From assembly GCA_020524525.2 (NCBI GenBank), contig CP129018.1:186001-250000 (forward strand): DNA of 64,000 nt, in the 5' to 3' direction. The notes below the pieces were generated by a model. It was not told the DNA's origin and ran no database searches. It was given only the letters and a program-made list of their open reading frames with translations. This DNA comes from Bacillus tianshenii. GTDB lineage: Bacteria > Bacillota > Bacilli > Bacillales > Bacillaceae_N. Positions 48,061 to 52,540 of the stretch are shown here, one piece after another; within the stretch, counting starts at the first letter, position 1, and each line of letters opens with the position of its first letter. Both the position numbers and the translations under genes were made by a program.

Positions 48061-48150
48061 TAAAGACTTAATTTACATTTTTTTCTAGAGTATTTCTTAG
48101 GTATGGTTGTGAAAAATAACCACAATGAAACTTCTAAAGAGGTGAATGCC

Positions 48151-48606
48151 GTGTGGTATAAATTTGTTGTTCTTTGGATTTTGTTGTTTGTTGCATTAAC
48201 TGGATGTCAGCAGTACGGAGACAAAAATGTGGAAATCAACCCGCATACGATTAGTATCAAAAATGAAAATAATTTAAAAACGGAAAATATTACCGTGAAA
48301 AAAGTGGAAGACATAATCCGTCCGATGAAAGAAGTACGAAAAATGAAAGTTGCCGCATTGAATAAAGACATTATCGCAGTCTTAGAACTTAAGCACTTAT
48401 ATACGTTTCGTTCGGAGAAAATAATCGGAAAAGCACAAGATAAGATTAAAAAGGAGTTTCCGCAAAAAACAGTTCGAGTTACTACTGACCACAAAATCTA
48501 CATTGAACTTGAAAAGCTTGAGAAGAATATTAAAAACAATGAGGTTAATCGAAATGAGTTAAACAAGCAAATGAAAAAAGTGAAAGAATTATTAAAGCAA
48601 ACGTAA
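48151..48606 (+). CDS. YhcN/YlaJ-type sporulation lipoprotein
   Basis: A 151-residue lipoprotein. The signal segment WYKFVVLWILLFVALTGC has lipobox LTGC with Cys19. The rest is Lys/Glu-rich, with VRKMKVAALNKDIIAVLEL and HKIYIELEKLEK, resembling YhcN/YlaJ proteins of spore membranes, though more distant. GTG 48151 with AGAGGTGA is preferred over an ATG at 48103. It is 12 bases before spoVAC, and a YhcN-type gene also precedes spoVAC in the mobile spoVA2 operon of some Bacillus, which supports the assignment. Confidence 0.7.
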   Translation: MWYKFVVLWILLFVALTGCQQYGDKNVEINPHTISIKNENNLKTENITVKKVEDIIRPMKEVRKMKVAALNKDIIAVLELKHLYTFRSEKIIGKAQDKIKKEFPQKTVRVTTDHKIYIELEKLEKNIKNNEVNRNELNKQMKKVKELLKQT

Positions 48607-48618
48607 GGGGGACTGACA

Positions 48619-49095
48619 ATGGCTAAACCAAAGAAAGAATTAACGCCTGAAATGAAGGCTTATCAGCAAATGACTCAGGAGCAAGCGGTGAAAAGACCGT
48701 TATGGAAAAATTCTGTACGTGCATTTTTGTTTGGCGGATTCATTTGTTTGATTGGGCAAATATTCCAATCTTTTTTCATGCGAAATTTTAGTTTTACTGA
48801 ACAGACGGCAGGAAATCCAACTGTTGCGGTGTTAATTTTTATTACAATGCTATTAACCGGATTTGGCCTTTACGATAAGATCGCTCAGTTTGGAGGAGCA
48901 GGTACAGCTGTTCCGATAACTGGATTTGGGAATGCAGTAATATCTGCCGCCATTGAACATCGTTCTGAAGGCCTTGTGCTCGGTACAGGTGGAAATATGT
49001 TCAAACTAGCTGGTTCTGTCATTATGTTTGGAGTGTTCGCAGCCTTTGCAGTAGCGTTAATTAAAACGCTATTGATTCAATTTGGAATCATCTAA
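48619..49095 (+). CDS. spoVAC: Stage V sporulation protein AC (SpoVAC)
   Basis: A 158-residue membrane protein of the SpoVA channel, which takes up dipicolinic acid during sporulation and releases it in germination. N-terminal KKELTPEMKAYQQMTQEQAV is typical of SpoVAC, followed by hydrophobic segments and the motif GAGTAVPITGFGNAVISAAIEHRSEG in two parts. ATG with AAGGGGGACTG upstream. spoVAE follows at once; the usual middle gene spoVAD is absent. Confidence 0.9.
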   Translation: MAKPKKELTPEMKAYQQMTQEQAVKRPLWKNSVRAFLFGGFICLIGQIFQSFFMRNFSFTEQTAGNPTVAVLIFITMLLTGFGLYDKIAQFGGAGTAVPITGFGNAVISAAIEHRSEGLVLGTGGNMFKLAGSVIMFGVFAAFAVALIKTLLIQFGII

Positions 49096-49113
49096 TGATT
49101 GGAGAGAAAAGCA

Positions 49114-49467
49114 TTGATTATTTATTTATGGGCATTCGTCGTTGGTGGAATTATTTGTGTCATCGGTCAACTGTTGATGGACATTTTCAAAATGACCCCT
49201 GCACATGCGCTAAGTATTTTAGTCGTATTAGGTGCGGTTCTAGCTGGCTTTGGCATTTATGACAATTTAATTGACTTCGCTGGAGCAGGCGCTACAGTGC
49301 CGATTACAAGCTTTGGAAATGCACTAGTTGACGGAGCTATGGGAGAAGCAGAGAAATATGGAATTGTTGGTGTTATTACAGGGATGTTCGAAGTTACAAG
49401 TGCTGGCATATCTGCTGCAATTGTTTTCGGTTTCCTTGGTGCTGTATTATTTCGGCCAAAAGGATGA
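49114..49467 (+). CDS. spoVAE: Stage V sporulation protein AE (SpoVAEB-type)
   Basis: A 117-residue membrane protein of the SpoVAE(B) family: [39 protein letters not shown] and [18 protein letters not shown]. It is homologous in its core to SpoVAC. TTG 49114 is favoured by GGAGAG 7 bases upstream and by the usual family N-terminus; the frame is open from 49099. A shared terminator follows. Together with SpoVAC and the lipoprotein it forms a short spoVA-like cassette. Confidence 0.88.
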
Positions 49468-50292: not shown

Positions 50293-50314
50293 CCCTTAGA
50301 TAAATATCTAAGGG
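50293..50314 (-). terminator. Terminator of the XRE-PAS/sda transcript
   Basis: CCCTTAGAT, loop AAAT, ATCTAAGGG: a perfect 9-bp stem. On the minus strand a U/C-rich run follows. Confidence 0.8.
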
Positions 50315-50322
50315 AAGTGGGG

Positions 50323-50478
50323 CTATGAAGAAGAATCTGAAGGATGTACTTTGACTTTATGAAAGAGGTTTCGGTGTTTTAATTCAGCTTCTAATAACTC
50401 AATAAATTCCCGATTAACGCTATGCTTGATGGCATCTTTATATGCTTGGACTAACAAATCATTTGGTATATAGTTCAA
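50323..50478 (-). CDS. sda: Sporulation histidine kinase inhibitor Sda
   Basis: A 51-residue Sda-type protein: IPNDLLVQAYKDAIKHSVNR then EFIELLEAELKHRNLFH, the antiparallel helical hairpin of the family, extended by a short polar tail. Sda binds sporulation kinases (KinA, KinB) and blocks phosphorelay entry when replication is disturbed. TTG 50478 is preceded by AAGGGGGA. The first 20 bases overlap the end of the XRE-PAS gene, so translation is coupled. No DnaA-box cluster was seen near it. Too short for usual ORF calls. Confidence 0.85.
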   Translation of the reverse strand: MNYIPNDLLVQAYKDAIKHSVNREFIELLEAELKHRNLFHKVKVHPSDSSS

Positions 50479-51052
50479 AGAATCCCCCTTCATGGTCTTG
50501 TTCTTTTAAATATAATATGTTTTTTTTTAGATAATCTGTAAGGTCTGTTGCTGAGGTGGAGATCCCAATTATATTCCCGTTTGGATTTCTTAACGGTTGA
50601 GCGAATACATCAAACGTGCGAACTCCTTTCTTGAAAGGAAATGTGACGATTTTTCTTAATGGTTTTTTTTCTTTAAGAACAGTGCTTTTCAAAGTCATAA
50701 ATTCAACAATACCCTCATTCATTGTAAGTTCGTCATCTCGAAGACCAATTACTTGCTCTGATGGGAAATTCAATGAGTTATAAATCCAAGTATAACGAAG
50801 CTCTAAATCACAATGAGCTATAATAATGGGAGAATTCGTTAGAGCTAAATGAAATGCTTCACAATGTTCCATGAAAAAAATAGAGGAACTAAAATTGAGG
50901 GTGTCTGCGATATTTTTAGCTACATGTAAGCTTGGATTTCTATTCCCGTTTTCGATTTGTGTGTAGTATGCGCGATCAATAAATGCTGCTGATGCCACAT
51001 CTTCTTGTGTAAGTCCTTTGTTTTTACGAATTTTAATTAACCAGTTTCTCAT
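50459..51052 (-). CDS. XRE-family HTH regulator with PAS domain
   Basis: A 197-residue regulator. The N-terminal helix-turn-helix (about residues 6-60) reads IRKNKGLTQEDVASAAFIDR and YYTQIENGNRNPS, a typical XRE domain. A PAS-like domain follows (about 75-185) with ITNSPIIIAHCDLELRYTWIY-type strands and GNIIGISTSATDLT near the end. There is no membrane segment, so it senses a cytoplasmic signal. ATG 51052 is 5 bases after GGTGA; an ATG at 51064 is the alternative. It overlaps sda and is divergent from a histidine kinase. Its signal and targets are unknown. Confidence 0.82.
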   Translation of the reverse strand: MRNWLIKIRKNKGLTQEDVASAAFIDRAYYTQIENGNRNPSLHVAKNIADTLNFSSSIFFMEHCEAFHLALTNSPIIIAHCDLELRYTWIYNSLNFPSEQVIGLRDDELTMNEGIVEFMTLKSTVLKEKKPLRKIVTFPFKKGVRTFDVFAQPLRNPNGNIIGISTSATDLTDYLKKNILYLKEQDHEGGFFELYTK

Positions 51053-51394
51053 TTTCATCACCATTTCTCGTTGATCTTCCCACCCGCTGTTTTTCTTACA
51101 TAAAAGAATTATTCTGACTGTATTTTGTTATACCTTGTGGCTATTTTGCCACGGGTAGAGGTGGAAGATGTATAATTAAAAAGATAGTGCGTGTCTTTTC
51201 AATAGGCATACACAACTAGTACATACGAAAAGGTAGGGCTTGGTACATAGTCATAATGATGATAGTCATTTATTAACCGTTGAAAAACTTTTTAAACCTT
51301 ATATGCTGGGTTTTTGTATACAGACTAAAGAATATCAGTGATAAAACATGTTATGATGGAAGAAGGAAAATTTATTAAAAGATAGGAGATTATT
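51053..51394. other. Divergent regulatory region XRE-PAS / kinase
   Basis: 342 bp with no gene. It contains an inverted repeat GTGGC-N6-GCCAC (51137-51152), a direct repeat ATAGTCAT at 51247-51254 and 51262-51269 (15-base period), a TATAAT at 51171-51176 without a good -35, and the kinase RBS ATAGGAG. Candidate operators for the XRE protein, unproven. Confidence 0.5.
51137..51152. promoter_or_regulatory. Operator-like inverted repeat GTGGC-N6-GCCAC
   Basis: A perfect 5-bp palindrome with a 6-base centre, about 85 bases upstream of the XRE-PAS start. Such spacing is usual for XRE-family dimers; function unproven. Confidence 0.35.
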
Positions 51395-52540
51395 ATGGAG
51401 CGGTTGCAGTCTGAACAGCAGTTTATCCAAAGACTTGTAACATTAATTATAAAAAAACAAACAATGATTATTGAAAACTGGTTAAAAGCGACATATTTTA
51501 CTGAGGATGATCCCTTTTATGAGGAGATTGTACAAAATGCTAAAAAAACCATTACGTTAATTCTTCTTTACTTAGAAGAGCAGAATGAAACATACATGAT
51601 TGACTTAACAAAAAAAGTTGCAAAGGAACGGATTGAAGCAGGGGTTAACATTAGTGAATTTGTTAGTAATATAAATATCGGACGAACAATTATAAATGAA
51701 TTGATTTCTGTTTCTGACCTAAATGATAAAGAAAAGTTAAGCAGCATGATGATAATTGATGATGTTTTCCATATCTATTTGTACCATTCTGTAAAGGAAT
51801 ATACGAAGTTAAAAGATGAAATTATTACGAAGAAGAATTTGTTCATTCAAGAAATGCATAGTGACCGACTTACAGTTCTCGGACAAATTGCTGCAAGCTT
51901 TGCCCATGAATTTCGTAACCCGTTGACATCGATAAAGGGGTTTATGAAAATCCTTTCCCGAAAGTTTAAAGGGGATAAAGAAGCAAGAACGTATTTTTCA
52001 ATTATTGATCAAGAAATGGAGAGCTTGGAAGAGAAGGTGTCTCAATTTTTATTCTTATCAAAAGTAAGAGGATTAGATGATACGACAGACAAAGTCGATT
52101 TAAATAACCTGGTGCAAAAAATGGTTAACTTCTTATATCCTCGTTTTGTAGATGAAAACATTGAAGTTAAAGTAAATTTAGATGAGGATTGTTTTATTGA
52201 GGCTGTAGAAGAGCAAGTTAAGCAAGTATTATTAAATATTTTAACGAATGCAGTTGAAGAATTAGCATCGATAACGAAAAAGAGATATATCAAAATTGAT
52301 AGTTGGAAAGAGAATAATCAAGTTATTTTGGAACTGTCTAATAACGGGCCTCAAATACCTGGACATTTGCAAGAAGATATTTTTGAGCCATTTGTGACAA
52401 CGAAAGACCTAGGAACAGGATTAGGGTTATCGGTTTGTAAGCAAATTGTTGAAAAGCATTCAGGAAGATTAGAAGTTACATCAGATGAGGATTGGACAAC
52501 GTTTAAAATTTTCTTTCAAAATATAGAAGAGCCCGCCTAA
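51395..52540 (+). CDS. Soluble sensor histidine kinase (HisK_N type)
   Basis: A 381-residue cytoplasmic kinase with no membrane segment. Residues 1 to about 150 form a helical sensory domain (ENWLKATYFTEDDPF, RIEAGVNISEFVSN) like the HisK_N/RsbRD_N class. The H-box ASFAHEFRNPLTSIKGFMKI has the phospho-acceptor His171, the N-box is LLNILTNAVEEL and the G-box LGTGLGLSVCKQIV. No response regulator is adjacent, as with orphan sporulation kinases that feed Spo0F. ATG with ATAGGAG upstream. A phosphorelay role is inferred from its soluble form and the neighbouring sda. Confidence 0.85.
   Translation: MERLQSEQQFIQRLVTLIIKKQTMIIENWLKATYFTEDDPFYEEIVQNAKKTITLILLYLEEQNETYMIDLTKKVAKERIEAGVNISEFVSNINIGRTIINELISVSDLNDKEKLSSMMIIDDVFHIYLYHSVKEYTKLKDEIITKKNLFIQEMHSDRLTVLGQIAASFAHEFRNPLTSIKGFMKILSRKFKGDKEARTYFSIIDQEMESLEEKVSQFLFLSKVRGLDDTTDKVDLNNLVQKMVNFLYPRFVDENIEVKVNLDEDCFIEAVEEQVKQVLLNILTNAVEELASITKKRYIKIDSWKENNQVILELSNNGPQIPGHLQEDIFEPFVTTKDLGTGLGLSVCKQIVEKHSGRLEVTSDEDWTTFKIFFQNIEEPA

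Follow-up and report, generated by a model that had tools for sequence, protein, structure and literature searches.

An Sda paralog encoded with an XRE-PAS regulator in Bacillus tianshenii as a candidate signal-dependent brake on sporulation kinases

Sda is a DNA-replication checkpoint protein, and in the 64,000-nucleotide stretch of the genome of the spore-former Bacillus tianshenii analysed here (the window) a gene for a second protein of its family overlaps the end of a gene for an XRE-type regulator with a PAS domain. We put at roughly 60% the probability that the two genes form an operon in which a ligand-responsive XRE-PAS protein sets the level of this second Sda, which in turn brakes a kinase of the KinA/KinB type. 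In such an arrangement the regulator gene and then sda would be transcribed together from a sigma-H-like promoter, the regulator would bind an inverted repeat beside the -35 element, and a ligand of the PAS domain would govern how it adjusts transcription of both overlapping genes, its own and sda. The second Sda would hold down a phosphorelay kinase, so that a signal-dependent brake on sporulation would be added to that of the canonical, DnaA-controlled Sda, and the histidine kinase gene divergent from the regulator would be a separate and older gene.

The overlapping regulator and sda genes

The sda-family gene (50323..50478, minus strand) encodes 51 aa from a TTG codon, and its product scored 45.6 bits against Pfam PF08970 (cut-off 22.6); membership of the Sda family was defined by a score above the Pfam curated cut-off and a length of about 45-56 aa. 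Its PDB matches were the Sda chains 3fyr, 1pv0 and 3d36_C, and in an alignment it is 37% identical to B. subtilis Sda. The TTG at 50478 is preceded by AAGGGGG and aligns with residue 1 of known Sda proteins; it is therefore most likely the start, and the overlap with the regulator gene (50459-50478) measures 20 bases, as had been stated in an earlier reading of the sequence only. The alternative, the first ATG at 50493, would give an overlap of 35 bases and has no comparable Shine-Dalgarno sequence before it. The same sequence-only reading had called the two genes fused, but they overlap without fusion. A terminator-like hairpin (50293..50314, minus strand) lies directly after sda. In the open reading frame taken from the ATG (50323-50493), five of the six serine codons are TCN, the codons by which Sda production is lowered in B. 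subtilis (PMC11925247).

The regulator gene (50459..51064, minus strand), upstream of sda, encodes 201 aa from its first ATG, and alignment of 21 relatives indicates that translation may instead begin at the ATG at 51052 (MRNWL...). The product contains HTH_3 (48.1 bits) and PAS_4 (36.2 bits) domains, both above cut-off, which makes it an XRE protein with a PAS domain, and in its AlphaFold model (mean pLDDT 90) a helical HTH precedes a PAS fold. Among the fold matches is VqmA, a quorum-sensing receptor of the PAS-HTH kind that likewise joins a PAS sensor to an HTH, although the match is chiefly over the PAS part and the HTH of the window protein is of XRE type and N-terminal. A scan of a collection of genome contigs with the regulator returned three loci only, with the match limited to the HTH part, and the plasmids and phages searched gave no match, so that those sequences give no sign of a mobile origin. 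We considered an identity as SinR or SlrR and rejected it, with an NCBIfam SlrR score of 20.5 bits against a cut-off of 250.

The pairing of a gene for a small helical protein with one for an XRE regulator is reminiscent of sinI-sinR, and the Sda-like protein could in principle act on the regulator, as SinI does on SinR, instead of on a kinase. We regard this as improbable, as the protein scores above cut-off as an Sda, the regulator lacks SlrR/SinR scores and the partner of the regulator in two other families, described below, is a KinB-like kinase.

The 3.87-Mb genome contains three sda-family genes, the window copy included. A canonical sda locus was defined by DnaA boxes upstream and by an adjacent yqeG, beside which sda lies in B. 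subtilis (PMC4923064). The copy at C1:2268002, with the top score of the three, fits this description, since it adjoins a gene read as yqeG and is preceded by three DnaA boxes, one exact and two with a single mismatch; in a congener, five DnaA boxes with at most one mismatch lie near its sda. The window copy has different neighbours and lacks the boxes: a scan of 50300-51500 allowing one mismatch returned a single TTATCCAAA, within the kinase gene, and none upstream of sda. The earlier observation that no DnaA-box cluster is present here is thus borne out. The contrast that had been drawn with B. subtilis, where sda stands under DnaA control, holds only for the window gene and is weaker than it appeared, because the genome also carries a canonical sda with boxes elsewhere. 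By its sequence and surroundings the window sda is a paralog, and the usual sda is retained by the species. The likeness to the DnaA-Sda-KinA/KinB checkpoint of B. subtilis lies in the shared PF08970 family and in a predicted action on sporulation kinases, and the difference lies in the placement of a paralog without DnaA boxes in an XRE-PAS operon. The third sda-family gene (C1:775645-775767, locus L002) has neither DnaA boxes nor an XRE-PAS gene nearby.

Recurrence of the regulator beside sda and kinB genes

We sampled as many as 399 genomes from the order and 400 from the class and identified 63 XRE-PAS loci in 15 families, and an sda or a KinB-like kinase gene, KinB being the kind of kinase that has been co-crystallised with Sda, adjoins 33 of them, spread over seven families. 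The arrangement varies. In 12 of the 13 loci of family f7, sda directly follows the regulator gene in the same orientation, as in the window, and in f25 it lies upstream on the same strand; in f36 (L098) and f49 (L247) it is divergent, with a repeat inside the short common gap, and in two f36 loci the two genes are convergent. A KinB-like kinase gene lies directly downstream of the regulator gene in 13 loci of f27 and divergent from it in f73, and for the two such kinases searched, the structure 'Sporulation kinase B' (3d36) matched far better than any other structure. Besides that of the window, 11 linked Sda proteins were verified by Pfam and the remainder were identified with custom profiles. 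On the regulator tree, linkage to sda arises at several separate positions. Taken as a whole, the genome comparison suggests recurrent association of this XRE-PAS family with either Sda or the kinase inhibited by it.

Both module genes are missing from the congener, as would be seen if regulator and sda had come together by chance and had no functional link. The recurrence of the linkage in several families and orientations, together with the control, in which no XRE-PAS gene was found within 1.5 kb of any of 33 other sda loci, makes mere adjacency very hard to credit. The 30 loci without an sda or kinB neighbour imply that the regulator must also have other roles. One f7 genome (L226) retains the XRE-PAS gene with neither an sda downstream of it nor the operator-like repeat, and another locus (L241) carries a tandem pair of XRE-PAS genes, each with a perfect GTGGC-GCCAC repeat.

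It is known from other species that Sda inhibits KinA and KinB through the DHp domain (PMC8534201), and by analogy the window paralog would act in the same way. The operon could also be real and regulated while its Sda has drifted towards a partner other than the sporulation kinases: identity to canonical Sda is low (37% to that of B. subtilis), and the linked f7 copies diverge most in the first helix. We nevertheless find such drift unlikely, since the core hairpin residues are conserved in every linked copy and KinB-like kinases are also paired with the same regulator family.

Control of the window sda by the PAS regulator rather than by DnaA, as had been suggested beforehand, is probable from the operon layout, the recurring pairing and the conserved operator-like repeat. 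For the family as a whole, we see about even odds that these proteins serve specifically as local, ligand-sensing regulators of the Sda/KinB node of sporulation entry, one regulator and operator being wired to sda or to kinB depending on the lineage. In the literature that could be searched, with most subscription papers lying outside it, we found no description of Sda paired with an XRE or helix-turn-helix regulator, nor of an XRE-PAS-type signal input to the phosphorelay. If Sda paralogs repeatedly stand under a PAS-sensing regulator that also stands before kinB, this would amount to a further ligand-gated input to sporulation entry that can be read from genomes. A predicted operator that covaries with the recognition helix lends itself to straightforward tests of direct binding and of the promoter, and the identity of the PAS ligand can be asked as a well-defined question.

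A candidate operator and promoter

An inverted repeat, GTGGC-N6-GCCAC (GTGGCAAAATAGCCAC, 51137..51152), lies upstream of the regulator gene, and its distribution points to it as the likely operator of XRE-PAS. The whole genome contains GTGGC-N4-7-GCCAC only twice, and a perfect GTGNC-N5/6-GNCAC was found upstream of 29 of 62 XRE-PAS genes. Among 608 other ORFs it precedes 14, of which ten are divergent partners that share the XRE-PAS site. GTGGC-N5/6-GCCAC is the form of the repeat in most families, and the arms track the recognition helix: YxAQ and YxTQ go with GTGGC, HIDRSYYSK with GTGAC or GTGCC, IERSYYAQ with GTGTC and HIDRAYYAQ with GT[T/A]GC. Such covariation is what direct binding would produce and supports it short of proof, the agreement not being wholly independent evidence because related subfamilies share helix and repeat by descent.

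Several further repeats were recorded. The second genomic GTGGC-N6-GCCAC (C1:2149855-2149870; L153, L189) lies upstream of an unannotated 46-aa ORF (MKEELNYDHPLIKKC...) for which there was no Pfam or NCBIfam match. A second XRE-PAS subfamily of f27 (L090, L091, L093, L231, L232) has a GTGTC-GACAC repeat in common with a divergently transcribed gene (about 273 aa; RsbR-type by eye), and at L087 and L092 GTGTCATTTAGACAC is found between two genes upstream of the XRE-PAS gene, the nearer of which (about 585 aa) is HD-GYP-like by eye. A wider regulon of GTGGC-N5/6-GCCAC sites was considered and set aside, most of the sites inspected falling within coding regions.

Adjoining the window repeat is a sigma-H-like promoter (AGGTATAACAAAATACAGTCAGAAT, 51111..51135, minus strand). 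The sigma-H consensus is RnAGGAwWW, 11-12 nt, RnnGAAT; the window sequence agrees with it in the GAAT and in the spacing, with AGGT in place of AGGA, and the f7 promoters come closer to the consensus. In the window, and likewise in 10 of the 12 sda-linked f7 loci, AGG[A/T]-N17/18-GAA[T/C] follows the repeat within a few bases; 3% of random 220-base stretches contain this pattern at some position. The window operon may thus use sigma-H. The f27 loci with KinB-like genes have a TATAAT about 23 bases past the repeat. In the window, f7 and f27 the repeat borders on the -35 region, a position compatible with either sign of regulation, and in f19 and at L083 it lies near or beyond the probable transcription start, which suggests repression there. 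Since the position relative to the promoters differs by family, repression and activation are both possible.

In B. subtilis, kinA is transcribed via sigma-H and kinB via sigma-A, and the XRE protein SinR controls kinB through an inverted repeat located at -57/-42 (PMC5733473). The systems are alike in that a phosphorelay input is controlled, or would be controlled, by a protein of XRE type and a promoter-proximal inverted repeat, and the f27 arrangement, with the XRE-PAS gene directly before a KinB-like gene, is similar too. The XRE-PAS proteins nonetheless belong to a different regulator family that has a PAS domain, their repeats have GTGNC arms instead of the GTTCTYT of SinR, and they appear to be local, with the likely target adjacent, which in the window is sda.

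The divergent histidine kinase

The gene divergent from the regulator (51395..52540, plus strand) encodes a histidine kinase with HisK_N, HisKA and HATPase_c domains, all above cut-off, which places it with the HisK_N sporulation kinases, and without an obvious membrane part, in agreement with its earlier description as soluble. Structure matches for its N-terminal domain were 3pmc (pXO2-61) and 3pmd, and the likeness of the locus to the B. anthracis HisK_N-type sensors BA2291 and SkiA (pXO2-61) is limited to this domain of a neighbouring kinase that is probably outside the module.

The sequence-only reading had combined regulator, Sda and kinase into one self-contained checkpoint with the kinase as a possible target of Sda. 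The three genes are indeed adjacent, the inverted repeat lies within the divergent gap common to regulator and kinase, and the DHp domain of the kinase is of the HxxxNP type, as in other sporulation kinases. The comparative data point the other way. In the one congener compared, the AmtB-GlnK-YhcN-SpoVA and kinase-MetH order is the same as in the window and the kinase (64% identical) is still flanked by metH and the spoVA genes, although the DUF2278-sda-XRE-PAS block is missing and its position is taken by a gene of 586 aa that looks amylase-like by eye; a search of that genome returned no XRE-PAS gene and one sda. No sda or XRE-PAS gene lies within about 1.5 kb at any of 29 loci of the closest kinase relatives in other genomes, the congener included, no operator-like repeat was found upstream of the related kinases, and some 240 bases separate the window repeat from the kinase start. 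The genome also encodes 12 further histidine kinases related to this one, including two that are KinB-like, so that the divergent kinase is not a privileged target for Sda, and neither sda nor XRE-PAS lies within about 1.5 kb of these 12 loci. We therefore consider a three-gene checkpoint unlikely. Conservation of the neighbourhood, which had been proposed as a check, extends to the regulator-sda pair and does not include the kinase, and the divergent kinase is probably outside the regulator-sda module. Further along the window (48103-49467), a gene for a YhcN/YlaJ-like lipoprotein is found with two genes of the SpoVAC/SpoVAEB type, and their order in the congener is identical.
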